Part shown: positions 13,111 to 55,472 of the stretch, piece after piece
Position numbering within the stretch: position 1 is the first letter of the stretch
How the letters are laid out: the number at the start of each line of letters is the position of its first letter
Source of the DNA: Gemmatimonadota bacterium
GTDB lineage: Bacteria; Gemmatimonadota; Gemmatimonadetes; Gemmatimonadales; GWC2-71-9
Direction: 5' to 3'
DNA: 64,000 nucleotides
NCBI GenBank assembly: GCA_040388535.1
Contig: JAZKBR010000004.1
Location: forward strand, 527,699 to 591,698
Translations under genes and position numbers: made by a program
The notes under the pieces: generated by a model
Database searches by the model: none
What the model was told of the DNA's origin: nothing
The model's input: only the letters and a program-made list of their open reading frames with translations

Positions 13111-13467
13111 TCAGATCTCCCGCCGCACCGCAGCGGTCGCGGCATCACCGGTATTCGGCGTTCCGGCACGCTCGATGATCATCAGGTGCACTTCCTCGGC
13201 GGCCACGGGTCGGTGCTCGACTCCCTTGGGCACCACGAAGAACTCGCCGGGCTCGAGCGTGACACTCCGATCGCGCATCTCGATCACCAGTTCGCCCTTG
13301 AGCACCAGGAAGAAGTCATCCGTGTCATCGTGATGATGCCAGACGAATTCTCCCTGCGCCTTGACCACCATCAGGTCGTGGCCGTTGAACTGCCCCACGG
13401 TGCGAGGCTGCCAATGTTCGCTGAAGCTGGCGAGTTTGTGCTCGAGGTTCACGACATTACCGCCCAT
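13111..13467 (-). CDS. Cupin domain protein
   Basis: 118 residues, one cupin barrel. Motif 1 is GEFVWHHHDDTDDFFLVLKGEL (three His and the acidic residues of the metal site), motif 2 is PGEFFVVPKGVEHRPVA. The histidines suggest a mononuclear metal. The substrate is unknown; such proteins are often small isomerases or dioxygenase-like enzymes. The ATG lies inside the last 11 bases of the kinase gene, with GGAGG upstream, indicating translational coupling to the kinase. Confidence 0.87.
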   Translation of the reverse strand: MGGNVVNLEHKLASFSEHWQPRTVGQFNGHDLMVVKAQGEFVWHHHDDTDDFFLVLKGELVIEMRDRSVTLEPGEFFVVPKGVEHRPVAAEEVHLMIIERAGTPNTGDAATAAVRREI

Positions 13468-15754
13468 CCAGCACCTCCCGTACCTTGGTCAGCAAGTCAC
13501 TCATCGCCCACGGCTTGTGCAGGAAAGGTACCTCCGGCTCGAGCTCGATCGATTCGTGGACTTCCCGGGCAGCATAGCCACTGGTGTAGAGGAACGCGAC
13601 ATCGACCGCGTCACGCCGGAGCGCCCGATACAGTTCCCGCCCACCCATGTTTGGCATCACCACATCAGAAATCACCAGATCCAGGGCATCGCCGAGTTCC
13701 GCCACGCGCTGTAACGCCTCCTCGCCGTCAACGGCCGTGAATACCTGATAACCGAAGCGCTCGAGTACCCGCGTAGCCGAACGGCGAATGGACTCTTCGT
13801 CATCGGCCACCAGGATCGTTTCGGTCCCGCCGCGGAGGGGAACGTCCGCCGCCACGAGTACACCGGGTTCCGGTTGCATGATCGCCGGGAAATAGAGCCG
13901 CACGGTCGTGCCCTGGCGCGATTCACTGTAGATGTTGGCGTATCCCTCGTGTTGTCGCATCAACCCGTAGACCATCGAGAGGCCGAGACCGGTGCCGACG
14001 CCCTGTGGCTTGGTGGTGAAGAACGGATCGAAGACCCGTTCGAGATTCGCGGCATCAATCCCGATTCCGGTGTCGCTTACCGAGAGACAGAGGTACCGCC
14101 CCGGCTTTCCCCAACCCTGGGCCGTGCACCACTCCTCATCAAGCAGGCTCGAGGTCGCCCGGAGGACGAGCAACCCACCATCCGGCATGGCATCGCGCGC
14201 GTTGGTCGCGAGGTTGAGCACGATCTGCTCGATCGCTCCAGCGTCGCCCATTACGCCGGGGAGCTCGGGGTCGGTCTCGATCACCACCCGGATGGTGGCC
14301 GGAAGGAGCCGACTGAGCGTCGACCTCCACTCCTCACAGAGGGCCCCGATCGCGAGCGGGCGGAGGTTTACCATCTCCCGCCGCGAGAAGGCGAGGAGCT
14401 TGCGCACCATCTCGGCTCCACGGCTGGCGGCACCGCGGAGCTCAAGCACATCCTGTCGCAATTCCTCCTGTTCCGCCGGAAGACTTTCAACCAGAAGATC
14501 ACTGTTCGCGAGGATCACGGTGAGGATGTTGTTCAGATCGTGCGCTATGCCGCCGGTGAGCTGACCGATCGCTTCCATCTTCTGCGCCTGCCGGAGCTGA
14601 TCCGCCAACTGCTTGCGATCCGTGATCTCGGCGGAGACGCCGAGGACCTGCACGGCACTGCCATCTCCCGGATCGAGCGGGACCTTCACCGACTCGAACC
14701 ACCGGAGGGTTCCGTCGACCGGAGAGGTGAGCTGCTCCTGGAAGATGCGCCGGGCGCCGCCGGTTGCGATCACCTCGCGATCGGCGGCGAGGTACTTGCT
14801 GACTTCATCCGGATCAAGATTGAAGTCGGCATCGGACTTCCCCACCAGCCCAGCCGGGGTTGTCCCATAGACCTCGGCCATCGCGCGATTCACGAGGGTG
14901 TATCGCCCGGACTGATCTTTCACAAAGATCAGGTTCGGGTCCGCATCAATGACCTGGCGGAGAAACGCCTCCTGTACCCGGAGCTTCGCGGCGATTTCGC
15001 GAGTCGCCTCGAGTACGCGCAGGCTCACCCGACGATGCACGGCGGCAGCGCCGAGGGCGGTCGCGAGCACCAGCATGGAGCCGAAGGTGACCGACGCCGT
15101 GAGCGCGGAACCAGTCAGCAGGAGATGGCTGTCCGGCAGTTCGCCGCCGGGCAGCGGCGTAAAGTGCGCCGCTGCCATCGCCGTGAAGTGCATCCCCACG
15201 ATGGCCGCTCCCATCAGCATGGCGCTCACGACCTTGCCCACCTCGGCCGCGCGAGTCGTTGGCAGACGGTAATGGTGGGCGAGCCATAATGCCGCCGCCG
15301 CGGCACTGATCGCGACGGCGATCGATGCCAGTACGAGGAGCGGATCGTAGCTGGTGATGACGCCGGCCCGCAGCGCCGACATGCCGAGGTAATGCATGCC
15401 GGCGATGGCGGTGCCCATCAGCAGGGCACCGATGAGCAGCGAGGCAACCCCGAGTGTGGTGCGTGCTGAAACGCTGAGTGCGATGAGGGAGGCGACGAAG
15501 GCAACGAGGACCGAGAGGAGCACGCGGGGAATGTCGTAACCGATCGGCACAGCGAGCGAAAACGCGAGCATCGCGACGAAGTGCATGCTCCAGATCCCTA
15601 CGCCCATGGCGAACGCCCCGGCGATCAGCCAGAGCATCCGTTGGCGACCGGCAGACGCCGCCACACGCCCGGCGAGATCGAGGGCGGTATAGGACGCCGC
15701 GATCGCGATCAGCAGGGAGAGTGCCACCAGAAACGGATCGTAGCTACCTGACAC
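13457..15754 (-). CDS. MHYT-PAS hybrid histidine kinase with C-terminal receiver
   Basis: 765 residues, GTG start. An N-terminal MHYT sensor of about seven helices carries the diagnostic MHFVAML, MHYLGMS and MHFTAMA motifs, thought to bind copper and sense O2, CO or NO. A PAS domain (about 265-385), the HisKA helix with [11 protein letters not shown] (phospho-His), and HATPase boxes ([27 protein letters not shown]) follow. A receiver with [11 protein letters not shown] closes the protein. It is the head of a five-gene operon with cupin, DUF2164, TonB-domain and DUF1801 genes. A dedicated downstream response regulator is not adjacent. Confidence 0.92.
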
Positions 15755-18135: not shown

Positions 18136-18471
18136 CTACTCCAGATTCTCCTGGATAAACGTCGGGGAAAGATGAACATCGACCTGGACGAGGGGCGTCT
18201 CGCCGATGTTACGGAACGAATGAATCTCGCCGGCCTTGATCACGAAGATGTCGCCCGCACCGCCTTCGAACTCCACGCCGTCGACGTTCCACAGCCCCCG
18301 CCCTTCGCGGACGAACTGCACCTCATCGTACGGATGACGATGCGGTCCAGGACCCCGTCCGGGCAAGGCACTCAACAGGAACACCGAAATGTTGACGTCG
18401 CCCTGGTTGGCGCCGATGAACTGATGGGAACTGCCGACAAAGGGAAGTTCCTCCTGCCGCACGTGATGCAT
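18136..18471 (-). CDS. Cupin domain protein, divergent from the B12 regulator
   Basis: About 111 residues from the ATG at 18471, preceded by GGAGG; a longer frame would run through the promoter region. The cupin metal site is PGPHRHPYDEVQFVREGRGL plus the second motif GEIHSFRNIGETPLVQVDVHL. It is divergent from the CarH-like gene across about 85 bp that contains the TGTCTAGACA palindrome, so the two promoters may be coordinately controlled. The substrate is unknown. Confidence 0.85.
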   Translation of the reverse strand: MHHVRQEELPFVGSSHQFIGANQGDVNISVFLLSALPGRGPGPHRHPYDEVQFVREGRGLWNVDGVEFEGGAGDIFVIKAGEIHSFRNIGETPLVQVDVHLSPTFIQENLE

Positions 18472-18496
18472 CGCTGCCTCCAAGACTTCGAGTGTT

Positions 18497-18506
18497 TGTC
18501 TAGACA
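18497..18506. promoter_or_regulatory. Perfect palindrome TGTCTAGACA in divergent cupin/carH promoter
   Basis: Ten-base perfect inverted repeat in the intergenic region between the cupin and the CarH-like gene; a TTGACA hexamer lies 15 bp away at 18521. MerR-type regulators bind such elements, but this one lacks the 11-bp repeat geometry seen at 24869. Its function is unknown. Confidence 0.35.
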
Positions 18507-18556
18507 CAGGGGTAATTTGATTGACATTCCCTCGACACAACGACACCTTTCAGCCG

Positions 18557-19507
18557 ATGACTTCTCCCGCGGCAGGCCAGCACAAACACCCGATGCGTCT
18601 GGTGATCCGGCAGAGCGGGCTCTCCGCCGATGTCCTGCGCGCCTGGGAGAAACGATATCAGGCGGTCACACCCGAGCGCTCCGCCGGTGGCCAGCGTCTC
18701 TACTCCGACGACGACCTCGTTCGCCTCTCGCTGCTGCAGCAGCTCACCACTTCCGGTCGCAACATCTCTCAAGTGGCACGACTCTCAGCGGTCGAGCTGC
18801 GAACCATGCTCGCGAGTACGACCGGCCAGCGCCCCTCGCCGGCCTCGGCCGAAGATCCTGACGAGAACGGGATCCAGGTACTGCAGGCCCGGATGCTCGA
18901 CGCGACCTCGCGGCTCGACGACCAGGAACTCGATCGCCTGCTGGGGCCGGTGGCACTCCGGTTCGGCGCCATGACTGCGATCGAGCGGGTGATTGTTCCG
19001 TTCCTTCACGAGATCGGCGCACGCTGGCATCGCCACGAATTGAACCCGGCCCACGAACATCTCGCCACTGCCGTCGTGCAGCGGGCGCTGCATCGCATTC
19101 GGGAGGGAACGACGCCCCCGGAACACGCCCTGCGTCTGGTCGTTGCGTCGCTGCAAGGGGAACGTCACGAACTCGGACTCCAGATCGTCGCGGCCGTCGC
19201 GGCGAGTGAGGACTGGCGCGTCATCTTTCTGGGGGCCGACCTTCCTACCCGCAGCCTGGTCGAAGCGGCCGCGAGCGCCGATGCCAGGGTGCTCGCGATC
19301 AGCATCGTATCGAGCACGCCCAGCACGCCAGTGGTGGCGGAGTTGACGGAGCTGCGTCGTGCCCTTTCACCGGGAGTCGCACTCGTAGTGGGTGGCGCTG
19401 GGGCGGCACAGTTCCACGATCAGCTGCAGCCGCTCGGCATCCACGTGCTCGGCGACCTCACCCAGCTGCGGGCGTTGTTGCACACCTTCCACGACCGGGA
19501 TCGCTAA
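18557..19507 (+). CDS. CarH/LitR-type MerR regulator with cobalamin photoreceptor domain
   Basis: 316 residues from the ATG at 18557 (an alternative start is residue 13). A MerR helix-turn-helix (about 14-60: IRQSGLSADVLRAWEKRYQAV..GGQRLYSDDDLVRLSLL) is joined to a helical-plus-Rossmann B12-binding domain. The adenosylcobalamin residues known from Thermus CarH (W131, H132, E141, H142, H177) align: W157-H158, E167-H168 in WHRHELNPAHEH, with identical spacing, and H204 in GERHELG as lower axial ligand, 36 residues later (35 in CarH). I infer a light-sensitive repressor. It converges on the lipid operon with a 4 bp CTAA overlap. Confidence 0.85.
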   Translation: MTSPAAGQHKHPMRLVIRQSGLSADVLRAWEKRYQAVTPERSAGGQRLYSDDDLVRLSLLQQLTTSGRNISQVARLSAVELRTMLASTTGQRPSPASAEDPDENGIQVLQARMLDATSRLDDQELDRLLGPVALRFGAMTAIERVIVPFLHEIGARWHRHELNPAHEHLATAVVQRALHRIREGTTPPEHALRLVVASLQGERHELGLQIVAAVAASEDWRVIFLGADLPTRSLVEAAASADARVLAISIVSSTPSTPVVAELTELRRALSPGVALVVGGAGAAQFHDQLQPLGIHVLGDLTQLRALLHTFHDRDR

Positions 19508-19965
19508 GGCGCCACCCCGAACCGCCGCGCGAGCGCCGCCGTGCGGAAATCGAAGATCGCCTCCAGTTGTCGCCGCACCATGACACGATGCGCCAACGCG
19601 CCGGCCCACCCCAGTGGCAGCGCATACTCCACTCGATCCGCGACCAGTACGCCGCCCGGCACCGCACGGAATGCGTGACGATGCAACCATCGGGCGTAGG
19701 GCCCGACCAGCATCCGGTCGGCGAAGTGTGCCCCCTCGACATACTCCTCGATCACCGACTCCCAGCGCATTGGCAGTCCGAGCCAGCGGATTCGATACTG
19801 AATCCGCGTGCCGTTCCGGACCGTTGGGTCGCTCGCCGCGCGGACCTGGAAATTGAGCCAGCGCGGCGTGAGCTCGGAGAGGTTGTGCGGGTCCTTGAAG
19901 AAGGCAAACACCGCTTCGAGACTCCCGGGCACGACGAGTTCGCGCTCAAGCAATTGCGTCGTCAC
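19504..19965 (-). CDS. SRPBCC (START/Bet v1-like) family protein
   Basis: About 153 residues from the GTG at 19965 that overlaps the DUF1295 stop (GTGA). The polyketide-cyclase/ligand-binding fold shows as LEAVFAFFKDPHNLSELTPRWLNF, an internal strand region and the long C-terminal helix ALAHRVMVRRQLEAIFDFRTAAL. Members bind hydrophobic ligands. It is the last gene of the lipid operon, so it probably carries or processes a lipid product. Its stop overlaps the CarH-like gene's stop. Confidence 0.85.
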   Translation of the reverse strand: MTTQLLERELVVPGSLEAVFAFFKDPHNLSELTPRWLNFQVRAASDPTVRNGTRIQYRIRWLGLPMRWESVIEEYVEGAHFADRMLVGPYARWLHRHAFRAVPGGVLVADRVEYALPLGWAGALAHRVMVRRQLEAIFDFRTAALARRFGVAP

Positions 19966-20729
19966 GCCGCTTTCCGGAACCAGGGGATGAAGATGCTGAC
20001 CTGCCGCTGATAGCGCCGGTATGCATCGCCACGACTCCGCAACGCCTGCGCTTCGGTATGCGGGATGCCGGTAAGTCGAAAGAGGAAGAGGAGCATGGCG
20101 ACAGGCCCCACCCAGGTCAGTACCGTGCCACCACCGATCAACACGTAGGCCCACCAGTGCAACCACTCAAAGAAGTAGTTTGGATGCCGGGTGTAGCGCC
20201 ACAACCCCACCTCGCACACCATTCCCCGATGGCAAGGGTCAGCGCGGAAATGGGCGAGCTGACCGTCGGCAATCGTCTCGCCACAGACCGCGACTGCCCA
20301 CACCAGCACGCCACACCACGCCAGCAGCGTGAGCGGGCCGCCGTGCATCGCCCCAAAAATCGGCAGGGAGAAGGTCAGGGCGAAGCCGGCCTGCGCCTGA
20401 TAGAAGAAGAAGTACCCCAACGGAGCACGGGCGCCCCAATGTTTCCGCAGGTAGGCATACCGGCCATCCTCGCCGCGCGACGGGAGAACCCGGTCGCGCC
20501 AGAGGAAGAGGGCGAGCCGCAGGGCCCAGAGTGCAGCGATACTCGCCACCACCACCTTGCGCTGAGTATCCGCCTCGACGAACCACGGATAGAAGAGGGC
20601 CAGGAATCCGAGGCCCGCCGACCAGGCCACATCCACGCTGGTGGCGTCACGGGTGCGCAGTTGCACGGCCCAGAGCAGAATCATTGCGATCGCGATGATC
20701 AGCCAGCCATACCAGAGTGGCTGACTCAT
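19962..20729 (-). CDS. DUF1295 family membrane protein (steroid 5-alpha-reductase-like)
   Basis: 255 residues with about six hydrophobic segments. The reductase-like core is WALRLALFLWRDRVL..DGRYAYLRKHWG and the conserved GLWRYTRHPNYFFEWLHWW, ending RYQRQVSIFIPWFRK; the Tyr-Arg-His-Pro-Asn-Tyr signature identifies DUF1295. The start overlaps the methyltransferase stop by ATGA. Likely an NAD(P)H-dependent lipid or isoprenoid double-bond reductase, inferred from family resemblance. It is the fifth gene of the desaturase-led operon. Confidence 0.9.
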   Translation of the reverse strand: MSQPLWYGWLIIAIAMILLWAVQLRTRDATSVDVAWSAGLGFLALFYPWFVEADTQRKVVVASIAALWALRLALFLWRDRVLPSRGEDGRYAYLRKHWGARAPLGYFFFYQAQAGFALTFSLPIFGAMHGGPLTLLAWCGVLVWAVAVCGETIADGQLAHFRADPCHRGMVCEVGLWRYTRHPNYFFEWLHWWAYVLIGGGTVLTWVGPVAMLLFLFRLTGIPHTEAQALRSRGDAYRRYQRQVSIFIPWFRKAA

Positions 20730-21958
20730 GCGGCGACTCGGACCGGCATGACTGCCCCTGCCTCGACGTGCGTCATTGCGCGGGGCATCGCGAAGATCAG
20801 CTGGACGCTGCCGATGACCGCCTCGCGGAAGCCACCCTCGCAATAGCAGAAGTAGAAGCGCCAGAGCCGTCGGAATTCATCGTCGAAGCCCATCGCCGCA
20901 ATCCTCGACCAGTTGAGTTCGAACGCCATCCGCCACCGCGCCAGGGTTTCGGCGTAGTGCGGCGTGAGGTCTTCGAGCTGCACCATCCTGAGCGGCGTGT
21001 CTCGCGCCGCCCAAGCCAGGGTCGAGATCGAAGGGATGCAGCTGCCAGGGAAAATGTACCGCTTGATGAAGTCCATCTCGCGGCGTGCCGAGTCATAAAA
21101 GCGGTCCTGGATCGTGATGGCCTGGATCGCGGCCATCCCGTCGTCGGTCAGCAGCCTCGCACAGGTCGCGAAGTAGTCCTGGTAGAACTCGTGCCCCACA
21201 GCCTCGATCATCTCGATGGACACCAGCTTGTCGAACGTTCCGGTGAGATCGCGATAGTCCTGGAAGAGCACGCTGACACGATCGGCCAGACCGGCCGCGG
21301 TCACTCGCGCGAGCGCCAGTTGATGCTGCTCGGCCGAAATGGTAGTCGTCGTCACCTGACAGCCATAGGTCGCAGCTGCGTAGATGGCGAAGCCGCCCCA
21401 CCCGGAGCCGATCTCGATGACACGATCCTGCGGCTGCAGATCGAGCTTTCGGCAGAGCCGATCGTACTTCGCGATCGACGCCTCGCGCATGCTCGCCTCG
21501 GGGTCTTCGAAGATGCCGGCCGAGTAGGTGAGCGTGTCATCGAGGAACGCGGCAAAGAACTCGTTTCCCAGATCATAGTGCGCGGTGATGTTCTTGCGAC
21601 TCCCCTGCCGCGTGTTCCGACTGAACCAGAGGGCAAGCCGCCGTACCGGTATGAGAAGTCGAGCCGGCCCCCGCTCGAGACCCTCGATCGACTCGCGGTT
21701 GCGCGCCATCAGTTGGATCACCGCGGTGAGGTCCGGGCAACTCCACCACCCCTGGCCATATCCCTCGGCGGCGCCCAGATGGCCGCCCAGCGCGATCGCG
21801 CGATAGAACCGCGGGTCGCGGACCTCGATCGTCGCCGCCGGCCCAGCGCCATCGCCCACCGTCCACAACTGAGGCCCGTCAATCAGGGTGAGTTGACCGG
21901 CGTTCAGACCCGTGAGCCTGGAGATCACCAGGCGCTTCCAGAGACCAGTCGCGTTCAT
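20726..21958 (-). CDS. cfa: Cyclopropane-fatty-acyl-phospholipid synthase family methyltransferase
   Basis: 410 residues; start chosen at the ATG overlapping the DUF1365 stop (ATGA). The N-terminal lid region is followed by [28 protein letters not shown] and the SAM-binding motif [14 protein letters not shown], then the family's [14 protein letters not shown] and [14 protein letters not shown]. Such enzymes add a methyl or methylene from SAM to unsaturated acyl chains of membrane lipids. Because a desaturase and an FAD oxidase are encoded in the same operon, the product might be methylated or furan fatty acid rather than cyclopropane. Confidence 0.93.
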
Positions 21959-22716
21959 CGCTTTGCTTCCACGGATGGATGGGAATGGAACGGCACGCGC
22001 TTCAGCCACAACCGGAATGCCTGCCAGTAGATCCCGGCGGCCACGACCATCGTCATGAGCGGAAACCGGATCATCGTCGCGGCGAGATGTCGGGCGGTGA
22101 GGGGTTCCCGGTGCAAGGCGAGCGCGGCATCGAAGACACGGACCCCTGCCTCTTCACTCGCCATATACACGCCGATCCGCTCACCGGGCGCACTGAAGCT
22201 CCACTCATAACCTTGCGTCATCGACATGAACGGAGAGACGTGAAAGGCCTTGGCGAATCGGTGCAGGTGGCGCTCGAGCGTGTCACCGTGCCCGCGGCAA
22301 TCCATCACATAGGCGTGCCGTTCGCGCCACGGCGTGTTGGTGACCTCTGCAACGATCGCTTCGAGGATCGCGCCAGTCGCATCGTAGCAGTAGTAGAAGC
22401 TCACCGGATTCATCGAGACGCCGACATACCGCAGGTGCGTCAGCAGGTGGATTGGCCCGGTCGGTGCGAAGCCGAGTCGCGACGCGACCAGCGCGCACAC
22501 GGCATCGGCGAGGGGTATCTCGGCGCTGCCGAGATAATCGGCGCGACGGAATCGGATCGGCGCGGGGCGCGTCGTCGACCAGAACCAGCGGCGCTGGAAC
22601 AGCGTCGGCAACTCGTCCAGGTCGAGATAGAGCATGAACAGCGGCAAGCGGAAGGTGTGCGACAGTGGCCTGAGGCGCCGGTGCACGACGTGGCCGCAAT
22701 AGATCGCGCTTCTCAC
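21955..22716 (-). CDS. DUF1365 family protein
   Basis: 253 residues. The family opening [36 protein letters not shown] and the middle [26 protein letters not shown] are diagnostic; [12 protein letters not shown] is also conserved. DUF1365 genes are almost always next to CFA-type methyltransferases and FAD-dependent amine oxidase-like genes, as here (4 bp overlaps on both sides). A hydrophobic stretch near the C-terminus suggests membrane association. The chemistry is unknown. Confidence 0.93.
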
Positions 22717-23939
22717 GCCCCCGCCTCGATGGCCGCGACCACCCGGTCGGCACTGCGGACACCGTCTTCGTGGAAGCCGTATCCCCAGTAGGCACCGCAG
22801 TAGTGCGTGCGACCGGTACTGATTTCATGGTGGCGTGCCTGGGCTGCCATCCCGGCAACGGTGTAGACCGGATGGCGATACCGGAGGCGGCGGTAGACAG
22901 ACTCCGGACGGATCCGCTCACTCGCGTTCAGTGACACGCAAAAGGTGACCGGCGCCTCCAGCCCCTGCAGCATGTTCATGTTGTACGTGACGATAGCAGG
23001 TGCGTCGGCCTCGTTGCCAACGAGATAGTTCCAGCTTCCCCATGCGGCGCGACGTTTCGGCAGCAATGAATCGTCGGAGTGGAGGACGACGTCGTTCTCC
23101 TGGTAAGGGAGCGCGCCAAGAACTTCGTTCTCTGCGCTCGTCGGGTCGGCCAGCATTGCCAATGCGTCGTCGCTGTGACAGGCCAGCACCACCTGGTCGA
23201 ACCGTTCGCCGTTCACCGTGACGCAGCCTGCGGAGCGACGCACCGCAGTGACGCGTGTTTCCAGACGGATGCGGTCTCGGAACGGCGCCACCAGCGCATC
23301 GACATATCGCTGCGAGCCTCCGGACACCACCCGCCACTCTGGGCGTCGGTTGACCGAGAGCATGCCGTGATTGCTGAAGAACTGGACAAAGAAGACCACC
23401 GGCATCTCGAGCACGCTGGCGGGTGGGAGCGACCAGAGCGCTGAGCCCATCGGGATGAGGTAGTCACGCCGGAGTTCGATGCCGTATCGATTGGCATCGA
23501 GGTACTCGCCGAGGGTGCCTGTTGCCCTGCCCGACTCGACATCGCGTGGCGCGGCACGATTGAAGCGGGCGATGTCGCGCAGCATCCGGTAGAAGGAAGG
23601 CCGCACCAGATTGCGTCGCTGGACGAAGAGCTGTTCGATAGAGGAGCCGTTGTACTCGAGGTCAGTCGCATCGGCGCGAACCGAGAAGCTCATCGACGTG
23701 GGCTCTGTCGCGACGCCGAGCTCCGCAAGCAGCGCCGTGAAGCGGGGATAGTTCGTCTCGTTGTAGACAATGAAACCGGTGTCGACGTTGCGCAGGGCGC
23801 CGAACCCGGCAAGCGGCACCGTGTGCACGTGCCCGCCAATCCGGTCGTCGGCCTCGAACAGGGTCACCTGATGGCGTGGGTGCAGCCGATGCGCTACCAC
23901 GAGCCCCGCGACTCCGCTGCCCACCACGGCGATCTGCAC
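22713..23939 (-). CDS. FAD-dependent amine oxidase-like protein of the CFA/DUF1365 cluster
   Basis: 408 residues from the GTG at 23939, one base after the desaturase stop. The FAD motif [15 protein letters not shown] is at the N-terminus, followed by the second dinucleotide signature [48 protein letters not shown] and [19 protein letters not shown] near the C-terminus are characteristic of the DUF1365-linked amine oxidase family. It probably oxidises or dehydrogenates a modified acyl chain made by its neighbours. Confidence 0.92.
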
Positions 23940-23940
23940 G

Positions 23941-24846
23941 CTATGCACCCGCCTCGAGAATCCGGCGTGGCACGGGTCGCAGATCGTGAATGACACCGAG
24001 ACGCGCGAGGATCCAAAGGAGGTAGTAGGTGAGGTCGAACTCCCACCAGTAGAAGCCCTGGCGCGCCGATCCCGGAAAGCGATGATGGTTGTTATGCCAC
24101 CCTTCGCCGAAGGTGATCAGGGCGAGTGCGAGGGAGTTGCGGCTCTCGTCGTCGGTTGCATACCTGCGGCCGCCGAGGGTGTGAGCCAGCGAGTTGATGA
24201 GGCAGGTCGCATGGAAGAGCACGACCGTGCTGACAAAGAAGCCCCAGACGACGAACGACCATCCCCCCAGGGCGAACAGTGCCGCCGCGAGCAACGCCGG
24301 GACCACGATGTCGAATCGGTCGAGCCAGCGGAGTTCGGGGAAGCGGGCCAGGTCGCGCACTTCGTGGAGGTCGGTCGGGAAATTCACCGCGGCCGTGATC
24401 CATCCCATATGACTCCACCAGAAGCCATGCTGCACCGGCGAGTGCACATCGTCGGCGGTGTCGGCGTGACGGTGGTGCTTGCGATGATGCGCCGCCCACC
24501 AGAGCGGACCACGCTGCACCGCGCTCGCGCCCATCAGCGCCAGGCCGAACTGCACACCCCGGGATGCTCGAAACGCGCGGTGGGAGAAGTACCGATGATA
24601 GAAGCCGGTGATGGCGAACATTCGGATGCCATACAGTGCGAGCGCTACCAGCATCGCGGAGCGATCGAAACCCACCACCAGCACGCCGAGGCAGGCCACA
24701 TGCATCGCGACGAAAGGGAGCACCCGGACCCAATCGACCCCGCGCGACAGGATGACCTCGGCCGCGGGGAGCGCACCGGCGTCAAACCAGGCTCGGATCC
24801 CCCGTCGCCAGGATGAGACGGGATCAGCAGGTGTCGGATTACCCAT
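23941..24846 (-). CDS. Membrane acyl-CoA/acyl-lipid desaturase (delta-9-like)
   Basis: 301 residues, several transmembrane segments. The three His boxes of di-iron fatty acid desaturases are H84-RYFS-H89, HHRKHH at 120-125, and HNNHH late in the chain (WHNNHHRFPG). The ATG has no Shine-Dalgarno and the predicted promoter's start site lies at or next to it, so a leaderless transcript is possible. It heads a six-gene minus-strand operon and is divergent from DUF2177. The three-repeat operator lies directly upstream. Confidence 0.92.
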   Translation of the reverse strand: MGNPTPADPVSSWRRGIRAWFDAGALPAAEVILSRGVDWVRVLPFVAMHVACLGVLVVGFDRSAMLVALALYGIRMFAITGFYHRYFSHRAFRASRGVQFGLALMGASAVQRGPLWWAAHHRKHHRHADTADDVHSPVQHGFWWSHMGWITAAVNFPTDLHEVRDLARFPELRWLDRFDIVVPALLAAALFALGGWSFVVWGFFVSTVVLFHATCLINSLAHTLGGRRYATDDESRNSLALALITFGEGWHNNHHRFPGSARQGFYWWEFDLTYYLLWILARLGVIHDLRPVPRRILEAGA

Positions 24847-24851
24847 GCGGG

Positions 24852-24881
24852 AGGATAGCTACGCTGTCTAGCTATTGTCAA
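24852..24881 (-). promoter_or_regulatory. Predicted sigma-70 promoter of the desaturase operon
   Basis: Reading the minus strand: -35 TTGACA (24881-24876), an 18 bp spacer, -10 TATCCT (24857-24852), which puts the start site about at the ATG (24846). There is no Shine-Dalgarno, which agrees with a leaderless message. Two repeats (24869-24879 and 24880-24890) cover the -35 box. Confidence 0.5.
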
Positions 24882-24901
24882 GCTAATTCATAGATATATA
24901 T
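24856..24901. promoter_or_regulatory. Three 11-bp direct repeats, candidate CarH-type operator
   Basis: Repeats with consensus WAGMTA begin at 24869, 24880 and 24891, exactly 11 bp apart (first halves TAGCTA, AAGCTA, TAGATA). A further TAGCTA begins at 24856. They lie across the shared -35 region of the two divergent promoters. As I recall, Thermus CarH binds three 11-bp direct repeats head-to-tail. The matches between repeats are only about 5-6 of 11 positions, so the spacing is the stronger evidence. The region is markedly AT-rich for this genome. Confidence 0.55.
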
Positions 24902-24902
24902 T
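24875..24902 (+). promoter_or_regulatory. Predicted sigma-70 promoter of the DUF2177 gene
   Basis: Plus-strand -35 TTGTCA (24875-24880), 16 bp spacer, -10 TATATT (24897-24902), which predicts a start near 24909, 26 bases before the GTG. Its -35 overlaps that of the desaturase promoter, so one bound tetramer could shut both. Confidence 0.45.
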
Positions 24903-24934
24903 GACTTTTGCCTACTACACTCCGCGAGGCACCT

Positions 24935-25348
24935 GTGTCGGCCACCACCATCCTCAAGCTCTATCTCGCGTCCCTCCTGGTCTGCTTCGGGCTCGACCTC
25001 CTCTGGCTCGGGGTCATCGCGCGCGGCTTCTACCAGCACCAGCTTGGAGCACTCCTTCGCCCCGACGTCCGCTGGGGCCCTGCCGTCGCTTTCTACCTCC
25101 TCTTCGTGGTTGGGCTCATGGTGTTTGTGATCGTTCCTGCGCTCGACCGCGGCTCGGTGGGCCGGGCGATCTGGTCCGGGGCGCTCTTCGGTCTCGTGGC
25201 CTACGCGACCTACGATCTCACCTCACTCTCGCTGGTGCGCGACTTCCCGGCGCCGGTGGCCGTCGTCGACATGGCATGGGGGGCAACGGTGGCCGCCCTG
25301 GTGTCGGCTGCGGGCTACGGCGCCGGTCGCTGGCTTACCGCGACCTGA
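24935..25348 (+). CDS. DUF2177 family membrane protein
   Basis: 137 residues, four transmembrane segments. The GTG at 24935 follows a GCGAGG site with five-base spacing; the upstream TTG gives an unconserved extension. The family pattern LLVCFGLDLLWLGVIARGFYQHQLGALLRPDVRWGPAVAFYLLFVVGLMVFVI is clear. DUF2177 genes often accompany CFA/DUF1365/light-regulator clusters. It is divergent from the desaturase operon and appears to share its operator. Confidence 0.9.
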   Translation: MSATTILKLYLASLLVCFGLDLLWLGVIARGFYQHQLGALLRPDVRWGPAVAFYLLFVVGLMVFVIVPALDRGSVGRAIWSGALFGLVAYATYDLTSLSLVRDFPAPVAVVDMAWGATVAALVSAAGYGAGRWLTAT

Positions 25349-27334: not shown

Positions 27335-30049
27335 TCACCCCGCCCGGGGTTGCTCCAGCAGTTGCTGAATCGCAGCGAGCAGTTCGGAGTTGAGGAATGG
27401 CTTCGACAGAAATTCGACCCGTTCCCGCTCCCGGACCCGCTCGTGGACCATCTCGCTGCTGAAGCCGCTGATCACGACAAACGGCACGTCGGATCGCAAT
27501 TGTCGCATCGCGGTCATCGCCTCCTCGCCGTCCAGACGCGGCATGACCAGATCCATGACCACGAGCGCCACCGCGGCGAGGTGCTGCTGAAAGAGTTCGA
27601 CCCCATCCTGCCCGTCCACCGCCGTGATGACCTGGAATCCGGCGCGCTCGAGCACTCGCTTCGCGATGGACCGGATAACCGCTTCGTCGTCAACGACGAG
27701 GATCAAGCTGTGTCCCTGATCGCGGAATGCGCGCTCTGCATCGACGATGGCGGCGGCGCCGGTGACGGCCACGGTGTGGGCCACGACCGCCGGGAAGTAG
27801 ACCCGGAAGGTGCTGCCGCGACCGAGTTCGCTCTCGACCTGCACGCCCCCGTGATGACCCCGCAACATCCCGAGCGCGGCTGCGAGTCCGAGACCGCGGC
27901 CCACGAAGCGGGTCGTGAAGAACGGGTCGAAGATCCGGGAGACCGTCTCAGGCGTCATCCCTTCGCCGGTGTCCTCAACCTCCACCACCACGTAGTCGCC
28001 TTCTGTCAGCGTACCGTGCAGATCAAGGCGGGCGATCTCGGCCGTCGCGAGGTGAACTCGCGACGTGCGGACGGCAATCATCCCGCCGCGGGACCCCAGC
28101 GCCTCGGTGGCATTCGTGAGCAGCTTGTTCACGATGCGCCCGATCTGCTCCGCGTCACCAAGAATCAGCGGAATGCTGGTGGCCAGCTCCGTGCGCAACT
28201 CGACCGCAGGGGGCAGGGAATCCTTCATGGCGTCAACCACCTGGGCAACGACCACCGACAGGTGCAGCTGCTGTCGGTCGACCTCGGCCTTGCCGGTGTA
28301 GGCAAGCATCTGCCGCGACAGCTCGGCGGCGCGCTGCGCCGAGATCTCGATCTCGCCGATGTAGTCGAGCACCGGAGAATTCGCCGGCAGGTCGTCGCGG
28401 GCAAAGGTCGCGTTGCCCGTGATGCCAAGCAGCAGGTTGTTGAAATCGTGCGCGATCCCGCCGGCGAGCACACTCAGGCTCTCGAGTTTCTGTGCGCGCC
28501 GCAGGTGAGCGTCGGTACGCTTCCGCTCGGTGATGTCACGCGCCATCCCGATGGTGCCTGCGACCGCGCCATCGGTCGCAAAGAGCGGGCTCACAGTTGT
28601 CTCCACGACGCGCGTGACACCATCGACGTCGTGCTCATGATCGGCACTGATCGTGGCCCGCGACTCGATGGCGCTGCGGGTCTGCCCCGGCACGGCGGCC
28701 AGACGGTCGCCAATGCCCAGCTCGTCGTTCGTGTGCCCTTCGATTTCGGCACTGTTCCGCTGCACGAAGCGACAGAAGGCATCGTTTACGGCGGTGTAGC
28801 GCCCCTCGACGTCCTTCACCCACATCAGGTCGGAGACGTTGTCGAGAATCGCGCGCTGACGACGGACGCTCTCGGCCAGCGCCGCCTCTGATGCGCGGAT
28901 CTGAGCGAGCTGGTCGGCGAGCAGGCCATTCACGCTGGCCTGTCGACGCCGCTGCACGAAGAGCGAGAGCCCGATATAGAAGGCGAGCAGGAGTCCGGCA
29001 GCGGTCGCAATGACGGCGTAGCGCGAAACCCGCAGCCGGCCCCGAAGCGTCTCGTTCTCTGCCGCCGTCTGATTCGTTTCGTAGATGACCTGCAGATTCT
29101 TCAGGATCCGGAACCGCTCGTCATTCTCGACGCTATCCTGCACCGCAGTGCCCTGGGCGGAGTAGCGATAGGCCTTCGCCCAGTCCCCTTTTGCGGCGTA
29201 GGCGGAGGCCAGGTGACGCATGATTTCGACATCGCCCTCCCCGCCTGCCACCTTTTCCAGGCCGACCTCAATGGCCTTGTCGGGCTGGTGCAGTTCGAGG
29301 TAGACGCGCGCCAGATCGTTGTAGTCATGCAGCTTGATCGCGCGCGGGACGGAATCGGAATTCACGATCGCCAGCAGCTGGGTCAGCGCCCGCTGGTAGT
29401 CGCCCTTTCCTTCATAGGCGATCGCGACGCTGCGCAACGCGGTCAGCCCGTTCGCGGTCCGATGCAGCGCGGCCCAGTAGGCGCTGGCCTCCCGCGCTTC
29501 GGCAATTGCCTCGTCATAGCGCTTGAGGAAGTTGTAGACCTCGCTCAGCCGGACGTGCACATAGGCCAGTGCACTGGAATCACCGGTCGTTTTCTGGACG
29601 GCGAGCGCCTGCTGAGCATACTCGAGGGCCTTGGCGCCGTCGCCATCCAGCAGCAGCAGCGAGGCAATGTTGTTGAAGGCGTAGCCCTTCTCGAGCGGGA
29701 TGTTCGCGCTGTCGGCGACGCCGAGCGCCAGGAAGAAATGGCGGGAGGCAGCCCGATTCTCGCCGAGCCACTGGTACTCAACGCCGATGAAGTTGAGCGC
29801 CTGGGCCTCGCCGCGCCGGAAGCCGATCTGCCGCGCGAGCGTGAGTGCCTGCTGCCCCATGGCGATGGCAGCAGCCTGGTCGTTGCGGCGCAGCTCCCAC
29901 GACTGGGCATTGAGTCGCAGGACCTTGGCGGTATCGGGGAGGGAGGCGAACGAGGTGTCGGCAGGCGCCTGCCCCCTGCCCCGGGCCGCGACGGCCAGGG
30001 TCAGGAGGACCGCAATACGAAATGCGAGTGGTGCGCCAGGTCGCGCCAT
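27335..30049 (-). CDS. TPR-PAS hybrid histidine kinase with receiver
   Basis: 904 residues from the ATG at 30049, where MARPGAPLAFRIAVLLTLAVAARGRGQA forms a signal peptide. The extracytoplasmic region is a TPR array (about 40-330), then a transmembrane helix (about 345-367), coiled coil, PAS, HisKA with GGIAHDFNNLL, HATPase (NKLLTNATEAL, EDTGEGM, RGLGLAAALG) and a receiver with LVVMDLVMPRLDG. A TPR module as sensor implies binding of a periplasmic protein or peptide. No adjacent response regulator. Confidence 0.92.
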   Translation of the reverse strand: MARPGAPLAFRIAVLLTLAVAARGRGQAPADTSFASLPDTAKVLRLNAQSWELRRNDQAAAIAMGQQALTLARQIGFRRGEAQALNFIGVEYQWLGENRAASRHFFLALGVADSANIPLEKGYAFNNIASLLLLDGDGAKALEYAQQALAVQKTTGDSSALAYVHVRLSEVYNFLKRYDEAIAEAREASAYWAALHRTANGLTALRSVAIAYEGKGDYQRALTQLLAIVNSDSVPRAIKLHDYNDLARVYLELHQPDKAIEVGLEKVAGGEGDVEIMRHLASAYAAKGDWAKAYRYSAQGTAVQDSVENDERFRILKNLQVIYETNQTAAENETLRGRLRVSRYAVIATAAGLLLAFYIGLSLFVQRRRQASVNGLLADQLAQIRASEAALAESVRRQRAILDNVSDLMWVKDVEGRYTAVNDAFCRFVQRNSAEIEGHTNDELGIGDRLAAVPGQTRSAIESRATISADHEHDVDGVTRVVETTVSPLFATDGAVAGTIGMARDITERKRTDAHLRRAQKLESLSVLAGGIAHDFNNLLLGITGNATFARDDLPANSPVLDYIGEIEISAQRAAELSRQMLAYTGKAEVDRQQLHLSVVVAQVVDAMKDSLPPAVELRTELATSIPLILGDAEQIGRIVNKLLTNATEALGSRGGMIAVRTSRVHLATAEIARLDLHGTLTEGDYVVVEVEDTGEGMTPETVSRIFDPFFTTRFVGRGLGLAAALGMLRGHHGGVQVESELGRGSTFRVYFPAVVAHTVAVTGAAAIVDAERAFRDQGHSLILVVDDEAVIRSIAKRVLERAGFQVITAVDGQDGVELFQQHLAAVALVVMDLVMPRLDGEEAMTAMRQLRSDVPFVVISGFSSEMVHERVRERERVEFLSKPFLNSELLAAIQQLLEQPRAG

Positions 30050-30100
30050 AGCGCGGCAATATAGGGGAGCCGGGTGCGGTCGCCCTAGTTCTCCGGCCGG

Positions 30101-30127
30101 GGCGTGGCCCCGCAAGGGGGCCACGCC
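30101..30127. terminator. Strong 11-bp hairpin after the CsbD gene
   Basis: A perfect 11 bp stem (GGCGTGGCCCC with GGGGCCACGCC) around a 5-base loop lies 11 bp past the CsbD stop and 52 bp before the TPR kinase start, all on the minus strand. Its position suggests termination or mRNA end protection of the DUF1328-CsbD transcript. No T-tract follows on either strand, so intrinsic termination is uncertain. Confidence 0.5.
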
Positions 30128-30138
30128 ATGGTTCTGAG

Positions 30139-30369
30139 CTATGGCGTGCGACCGGCCTGATCTGCGGCCTCGTAATCGGCCTCGTTCCATTCATCGAGCT
30201 GGCGCTCGACCGAGTCCTTGGCCTCGCCATAGTGCTTCTGGATCAACCCGACGAGCTGGTCCCGCTTCCCTTCGAGGACGTCGAGTTCGTCGTCGGTGAT
30301 CTTCCCCCACCGCTCCTTGACCTTCCCCTTCAGGATCTTCCAGTTGCCCTTCGTGATATCGGAATCCAT
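30139..30369 (-). CDS. CsbD family stress-response protein
   Basis: 76 residues with the family opening DITKGNWKILKGKVKERWGKITDDELDVLEGKRDQLVGLIQKHYG. CsbD-like proteins are small, highly charged and induced by general stress; their role is unknown. It follows the DUF1328 gene by 24 bp and the two are probably cotranscribed. The hairpin at 30101-30127 lies just beyond. Confidence 0.92.
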   Translation of the reverse strand: MDSDITKGNWKILKGKVKERWGKITDDELDVLEGKRDQLVGLIQKHYGEAKDSVERQLDEWNEADYEAADQAGRTP

Positions 30370-54785: not shown

Positions 54786-55472
54786 TTACTCCACGGGTGC
54801 GAGAGCGGGCAACAGCATCTGGATAGATCCAGCGAGACCGTCGGGTGGGGCCACGTGCAGCTCACCACCGAGAGCCCGCACCAATTGTAGAGAGAGTGTC
54901 AAGGCGAGGCCGGGCGGCGCCGAGCGGGGCAATTTCTCGGCGCTGGGCCCGGAGGCGCTCCACGACACGGAGAGGGCAATCATGCCGCCATCCGCTCGTC
55001 CCGCGATCCGTACTTCGTCCGAGGTCGAGCACTCTTCAATGGCATGTTGCAGCACGTGCCGGATCGCAGACTGCCCCACCTCGGACACCGCCGGATGGGG
55101 CTCCGAGAGTCCAGGACCATGGGGAGAGATCGTCACGCCTCGCCCCTCGGCGAGGGCCTTCAGCACCGTTACGGCAGAGCCGATCGCCCATCCCAGCGGC
55201 ATCGCCCCGGCGTGGGCCTCGTTGAAGTCGTAGCATTGCTGAAGCCGGTGGGTAAAGCCGCTCGCCTTCGCAATTTCACGTTCAATTGCCCCAACGTAGC
55301 GATGGTGCGGGTGATCGGATGGGATCAGGCGTTGCAGTAGCGCGAAGGAGGTGTGGATCCCCCCGAGCGAGTTGTTGAGCTCATGGGCGACCCAGCCGGT
55401 GAGCTGACTCATCCGCCGGAGAGTGGCCCGCGCCTCGCCCAGTTTTTGTTCCGATGTGTCATCCTGCGCCAT
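54786..55472 (-). CDS. Degenerate histidine kinase, ChpT-like phosphotransferase candidate
   Basis: 228 residues from the ATG at 55472. A HisKA-like helix carries H30 (GWVAHELNN) but the ATP-binding half is eroded: the N box reads IRHVLQHAIEE (Asn to H143), the D-x-G-x-G G1 box is missing (LSVSWSASG), while the G2-like PPGLALTLSLQLVRALGGEL remains. This combination matches histidine phosphotransferases of the ChpT type (kinase-derived dimer with degenerate Bergerat fold). The next gene is a receiver. A GATTCGAATC-type palindrome is upstream. Confidence 0.7.
   Translation of the reverse strand: MAQDDTSEQKLGEARATLRRMSQLTGWVAHELNNSLGGIHTSFALLQRLIPSDHPHHRYVGAIEREIAKASGFTHRLQQCYDFNEAHAGAMPLGWAIGSAVTVLKALAEGRGVTISPHGPGLSEPHPAVSEVGQSAIRHVLQHAIEECSTSDEVRIAGRADGGMIALSVSWSASGPSAEKLPRSAPPGLALTLSLQLVRALGGELHVAPPDGLAGSIQMLLPALAPVE

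Follow-up and report, generated by a model that had tools for sequence, protein, structure and literature searches.

A class I LitR/CarH-type regulator and predicted operators shared with a putative furan fatty acid operon in a Gemmatimonadota bacterium

What does a B12-type light regulator control when its gene lies beside a lipid operon? This question is raised by a locus in a 64,000-nucleotide stretch of a Gemmatimonadota genome (GenBank assembly GCA_040388535.1, contig JAZKBR010000004.1, positions 527,699 to 591,698), which is called the window in the following. Here, a gene for a MerR-family regulator of the LitR/CarH type meets, tail-to-tail and with a 4-nt overlap, a six-gene operon on the minus strand (24846-19504) encoding a desaturase, a flavin adenine dinucleotide (FAD) enzyme, a DUF1365 protein, a CMAS-family methyltransferase, a DUF1295 protein and an SRPBCC protein. 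An earlier note on this DNA had proposed that the regulator remodels membrane acyl chains in response to light or singlet oxygen. Our analysis makes it fairly probable that a class I LitR/CarH repressor controls this ufa-type operon, with repression in the dark, release in the light and furan lipids as output. The wiring of regulator and operon is the well supported part of this reading, as judged from genes, cofactor residues, operators and operator conservation, all of which can be read from the sequence.

Tandem operators at the regulator and operon promoters

CarH operators consist of tandem 11-bp repeats of the form nnnnTnnACAn (PMC9304148), and two such repeats in register (TnnACA-n5-TnnACA) were searched for. 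One site, TTGACATTCCCTCGACA, precedes the regulator gene, and the other, TTGACAATAGCTAGACA, is found at a distance of 6.3 kb, in the interval separating the desaturase and DUF2177 promoters, which diverge. Neither site is mentioned in the earlier note. The whole window contains three matches compared with 0.37 expected from shuffling; the third (54886-54902, minus strand) lies inside a histidine-kinase-like open reading frame (ORF) and was taken as a chance match. When the two 175-bp promoter regions were each shuffled 20,000 times, a site on the correct strand appeared in 51 (0.26%) and 17 (0.09%) of the shuffles, the product being about two in a million. Over the entire 3.72-Mb genome, 16 matches to the motif were counted, against four for a reversed control, and two of the 16 are those at the two predicted promoters. 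The remaining matches are mostly inside ORFs; four fall outside the initial ORF calls, one of them overlapping an alternative start and another (L036) being near an EF-Tu gene. A stricter form, TTGACANNNNCTNGACA, which was derived from the two sites and is common to both, occurs only there in the genome.

The operon-side repeat contains the predicted -35 hexamer of the operon and overlaps the predicted -35 hexamer of the DUF2177 gene; therefore, a single bound repressor could silence both directions. In many loci (window 18521-18557 and 24846-24881; L081, L082, L084, L085, L087-L090), a -35-like TTGACA within the operator precedes the ATG by 34-36 nt, and leaderless transcripts are therefore predicted. 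For the operon, the transcript would start at or next to the ATG of the desaturase gene.

The same locus is carried by other Gemmatimonadota records. Of 298 Gemmatimonadota genomes, 117 have a regulator homologue (E 1e-20 or better) and 42 a DUF1365 gene, and the regulator is close by in 14 of 40 DUF1365 loci examined, often divergent from the operon. An exact tandem operator is present at most 200 bp upstream of the regulator in 14 of the 15 loci with both regulator and operon (window included), where 0.145 were expected and shuffles never gave more than two. Upstream of the DUF1365 (0/40), methyltransferase (0/39) and SRPBCC (0/20) genes no tandem operator was found. Where the regulator is not adjacent, the motif occurs in 4 of 25 ufa promoters, all four in genomes with the regulator elsewhere, and in none of ten ufa promoters in genomes without it. 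The link between regulator and acyl-chain operon drawn in the earlier note is thereby upheld, by operators at both promoters and by the conservation of linkage and operators across the phylum. That the MerR regulator has nothing to do with the lipid operon and adjoins it by chance is scarcely credible: the downstream, convergent regulator is poorly placed for operon membership and the two are unlinked in many genomes, but linkage recurs in 14 further loci and the operators are shared.

The genome holds one PF00875 photolyase match and one PF00494 (phytoene/squalene synthase) match, both on another contig, so that the earlier statement that the window lacks photolyase and carotenoid genes holds for these two families. 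No exact tandem operator was found at the class II photolyase locus or at the phytoene/squalene synthase locus. Since these genes lie elsewhere and lack the tandem site, the lipid operon appears to be the clearest target of the regulator in this genome.

Regulator family and cofactor residues

The regulator combines a MerR domain (PF13411), a four-helix B12-binding_2 domain (PF02607) and a Rossmann-type B12-binding domain (PF02310) in this order, all above the Pfam cut-offs, and its top relatives in a PDB sequence search are Thermus CarH structures. The residues holding adenosylcobalamin (AdoCbl) in Thermus CarH, numbered W131, H132, E141, H142 and H177, align with W157/H158, E167/H168 and H204. 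All five residues claimed before are thus present. Of the identical spacing claimed with them, the interval from W-H to E-H stood (10 in both proteins), while the second His and the lower-ligand His are 36 apart here and 35 apart in Thermus CarH. From its families, the protein would be expected to bind AdoCbl. A PduO-type cobalamin adenosyltransferase gene is encoded in the genome, and an Rfam scan of the window gave zero matches, hence no cobalamin riboswitch.

The two B12 domains, instead of one, set the regulator apart from class II LitR. In Pseudomonas, a class II LitR represses the light-inducible ufaM, works with LOV partners and is considered incapable of binding B12 (PMC9758184), in agreement with the LitR control of such clusters stated in the earlier note. 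The regulator could need a partner photoreceptor, like class II LitR, or it could sense B12 supply and not light. Across the phylum, the Trp, Glu, His and lower-ligand His are retained in nearly all regulators and the H132 position is variable; its His is lost in most regulators beside ufa operons, so that these regulators may differ in their photochemistry. However, neither of the B12 domains and none of the five residues is missing from the protein of the window, and the class II operator TRTACA-N12-TGTAYA (TGTACA-N12-TGTACA) does not occur in the window even with one mismatch. We consider B12 supply or a partner photoreceptor an improbable explanation.

Table 1. Genes, predicted promoters and candidate operators of the locus (window coordinates).
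Feature	Position	Strand	Basis
Small cupin protein, divergent from regulator	18136..18477	-	PF07883; 79-bp intergenic region shared with operator
CarH-type operator of regulator promoter, TTGACATTCCCTCGACA, two tandem 11-bp repeats	18521..18537	+	First base 36 nt before ATG
Class I LitR/CarH-type MerR regulator, 316 aa	18557..19507	+	Pfam; PDB CarH 3whp 7e-22; W157, H158, E167, H168, H204
SRPBCC (Polyketide_cyc2) protein, final operon gene	19504..19965	-	PF10604
DUF1295 membrane protein, steroid 5-alpha-reductase-like	19962..20729	-	PF06966, PF02544
UfaM-like S-adenosylmethionine (SAM) methyltransferase, CMAS family	20726..21958	-	PF02353; 6bqc alignment; His-to-Gln in 111/111 homologues
UfaO-like DUF1365 protein	21955..22716	-	PF07103, 272 bits; UfaO carries DUF1365 (PMC7380195)
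UfaD-like FAD enzyme	22713..23948	-	Amino_oxidase/NAD_binding_8; UfaD description in PMC7380195
Acyl-CoA desaturase, SCD1 kind, operon gene 1	23941..24846	-	PF00487 FA_desaturase; mouse SCD1 4ymk 1e-25
Predicted operon promoter: -35 TTGACA (24881-24876), -10 TATCCT (24857-24852), spacer 18	24852..24881	-	Consensus scan only
CarH-type operator of operon promoter, TTGACAATAGCTAGACA, two tandem 11-bp repeats	24865..24881	-	First base 35 nt before desaturase ATG
Predicted divergent DUF2177 promoter: -35 TTGTCA, -10 TATATT	24875..24902	+	Consensus scan only
DUF2177 membrane protein, divergent from operon across shared operator	24935..25348	+	PF09945

The cupin gene may be a third target of the regulator. 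The intergenic region between the two (18478-18556) also has a near-palindrome, TGTTTGTCTAGACACA, with a single TAGACA repeat. In several relatives (L077, L080, L083, L087) a gene for a fasciclin-domain protein adjoins the regulator, in some of them divergently by a CarH-type operator, or stands at the head of the operon. Photolyase-related genes (DPRP type, CPD-photolyase-like) adjoin the regulator in the relatives L077 (11832-13982), L082 (5149-6633) and L085 (4564-6129), and not in the window. As judged from translations, the region is flanked in the window by two large proteins that resemble hybrid histidine kinases and carry receiver domains (13457-15754 and 27335-30190).

The operon and its probable product

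The earlier description of a translationally coupled six-gene operon, convergent to the regulator and with the DUF2177 gene divergent, was borne out: the named genes are in place, Pfam agrees, including PF09945 for the divergent gene, and the junctions overlap. The DUF1365, methyltransferase, DUF1295 and SRPBCC genes each start within a 4-nt overlap (GTGA/ATGA) with the preceding gene; the FAD gene starts either at GTG 23948, with an 8-nt overlap with the desaturase stop, or at GTG 23939, after a one-base gap. In Rhodopseudomonas palustris, RPA2571-2570-2569 are ufaD, ufaO and ufaM and are jointly sufficient for the methylated furan fatty acid 9M5-FuFA; UfaD is a phytoene-desaturase-like FAD protein, and UfaO is a DUF1365 protein (PMC7380195), in agreement with the furan-forming gene sets named in the earlier note. 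In the window, FAD enzyme, DUF1365 protein and CMAS methyltransferase follow one another in this same D-O-M order, and the operon probably builds furan fatty acids.

The methyltransferase can be aligned with E. coli Cfa (6bqc), the bicarbonate site of which comprises Cys139, Glu239, His266 and Tyr317. At these positions the enzyme of the window has Ala147, Glu252, Gln279 and Tyr335, which does not match the Cfa set. All 111 of 111 homologues carry Gln in place of His266, and the Cys position is mostly Ser, Cys or Ala. A second methyltransferase found in relatives keeps the bicarbonate-site His in nearly all cases. Because of the His-to-Gln exchange in the one enzyme, while the other retains His, the methyltransferase of the window looks distinct from genuine cyclopropane synthases and agrees with a methylase of the UfaM type. 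Its earlier label, CFA-type, is thus right for the family (CMAS, PF02353) and gives way to UfaM-type for the likely activity. The invariant Gln (window 20726-21958 and homologues in L077-L203) could serve to mark UfaM-type enzymes in sequences.

The same wiring could have another product, namely cyclopropane or plain methyl-branched acyl chains, with other roles for the DUF1365 and FAD proteins. The CMAS family and NCBIfam cyclopropane synthase matches agree with this, as does the single methyltransferase in the operon, and cyclic acids were among the products when a Halomonas ufaM was overexpressed in E. coli (PMC12089945). The distribution of His and Gln at the bicarbonate site speaks against it, however, and ufaD and ufaO, which stand here in the order of R. 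palustris, are needed for furan formation in Rhodobacter (PMC7380195). We regard another product as unlikely, though the most serious of the competing explanations. The predicted fold of the DUF1365 protein (21955-22716; pLDDT 89) is a small beta-barrel with a C-terminal helix. It resembled only generic lipid barrels (nitrobindin-like, fatty-acid-binding-like) with Z of about 7 or less, in the noise range and too weak for deducing its chemistry, and a PDB sequence search with the protein found zero relatives.

For the furan pathway under CarH-type control, the following course is proposed from the families involved. In the dark, the AdoCbl-loaded regulator would assemble on the tandem 11-bp repeats at the -35 regions of its own promoter and of the desaturase-operon/DUF2177 promoters and thereby block RNA polymerase. 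Light would break the Co-C bond, the regulator would leave the DNA, and regulator, operon and DUF2177 gene would be induced together. The SCD-like desaturase may then supply a cis-monoene on phospholipid acyl chains, which the UfaM-like enzyme would methylate with SAM as donor; the UfaD-like flavoenzyme would make a conjugated diene, and the UfaO-like DUF1365 protein would insert oxygen to give a methylated furan fatty acid, which could scavenge singlet oxygen. Release by light, repression, the order of the reactions and the role in protection are all carried over here from the families and stand below the wiring in certainty.

Several observations weigh against this reading. The regulator reaches 103 bits with the NCBIfam model of the CarH equivalog (NF052513), the curated cut-off of which is 400, and is therefore, by sequence, a distant CarH relative, that is, class I LitR/CarH-type and not a CarH equivalog. 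Its own promoter has no good -10 element, and each operator consists of only two full repeats. The likeness to UfaM, UfaD and UfaO was drawn from families, descriptions and gene order, not from proven reference sequences. R. sphaeroides UfaM acts on cis-vaccenate (11Z), but the product expected from an SCD-like enzyme is 9Z; therefore, the exact furan may differ. The operon is without the second methyltransferase seen in most relatives, where this 25%-identical CMAS protein follows DUF1295; it is missing at the DUF1295/SRPBCC junction of the window (19962-20729 / 19504-19965). Finally, no photosynthetic reaction centre was found in the genome, which leaves no evident source of singlet oxygen, and the protection would therefore be that of a non-phototroph.

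One lipid module under different controllers

The desaturase-headed operon is widespread, among others in Xanthomonadales and further gamma- and betaproteobacteria. In the cluster of the Acinetobacter plasmid p1AsACE and of Xanthomonadales (desaturase-FAD-DUF1365-CMAS-DUF1295-MT) the order is the same, with the desaturase first, and protein identities are about 34-64%; different from the window, no CarH gene was found beside it and a second methyltransferase follows DUF1295. The Acinetobacter plasmid copy adjoins a photolyase gene. The ufaD-ufaO-ufaM sets of R. palustris and R. sphaeroides share enzyme families and order with the window, where desaturase, DUF1295 and SRPBCC genes are added. 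The desaturase, which the earlier note had stressed as part of the transcript, is indeed gene 1, but is ordinary in such operons; two more desaturases are encoded outside the operon in this genome. The desaturase-containing operon is thus ordinary, and the controller is what varies. Clusters of ufa type were also seen in two bins (L133, L177) and in plasmid-collection records (NZ_CP129856.1, CP125156.1) titled Bordetella parapertussis or Klebsiella pneumoniae; both plasmid-collection records are titled K. pneumoniae (one is of 5.4 Mb), and the two bins may be mislabelled.

CarH of Thermus thermophilus, Bacillus megaterium and Myxococcales, also class I LitR, resembles the regulator in domain order, the five AdoCbl residues and a tandem 11-bp operator over the -35 region. 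Their known targets are mainly carotenoid genes, whereas the target here is a ufa-type lipid operon, and the regulator differs from them by its distant sequence, its last His interval and its two full repeats. The class II regulators PplR and PmlR of Pseudomonas putida and P. mendocina likewise control ufaM and neighbours (FAD oxidoreductase, photolyase), but with one B12 domain, LOV photoreceptor partners and TGTACA-N12-TGTACA sites. On a Salinivibrio plasmid, the LitR-like gene that precedes ufaD-ufaO-ufaM lacks the B12 residues, and TGTACA-N12-TGTACA sites of the class II type lie upstream. Some beta- and gammaproteobacterial assemblies also have class-I-type regulators with B12 residues close to the operon.

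In Rhodobacter, the furan genes are under sigma-E/ChrR, which responds to singlet oxygen, and belong to the core sigma-E regulon (PMC6852236); in Aminobacter, ufaD-ufaO adjoins sigma-E/ChrR and a DUF2177 gene. Such control with an incidental CarH neighbour is very improbable for the window: the genome gave two weak Cupin_7 matches with no sigma-factor-like gene visible adjoining them, and the CarH operators lie over the operon's -35 region and are met again throughout the phylum. Of the two signals left side by side in the earlier note, the evidence thus favours light and B12 over singlet oxygen as the direct one.

LitR control of ufaM via class II was known already; the proposed control of a ufa operon by a class I, B12-type LitR/CarH appears to be new. 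In a literature search of partial coverage, no report was found of a B12-type CarH controlling ufa genes, nor was such a link found described for Gemmatimonadota. AdoCbl photoreception would thereby be extended from pigments to membrane lipid chemistry, and the exact operator bases are now available for testing. Depending on the lineage, one lipid module would be governed by different regulators responding to light or singlet oxygen: a class I CarH in the present genome, a class II LitR in Pseudomonas, a LitR-like protein on the Salinivibrio plasmid, and the sigma-E/ChrR system in Rhodobacter and Aminobacter. Our data suggest that the membrane lipids are protectively altered upon illumination, either in place of the usual pigments or in addition to them. 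More tentatively, and with a little less than even confidence, we propose that the main or only recognisable target of the AdoCbl photoreceptor in Gemmatimonadota is a full light-to-lipid module, in which one repressor would switch desaturation, methylation, furan formation and DUF2177 together. If this is true, furan lipids, rather than carotenoids, would be the light-protection output of CarH in Gemmatimonadota.

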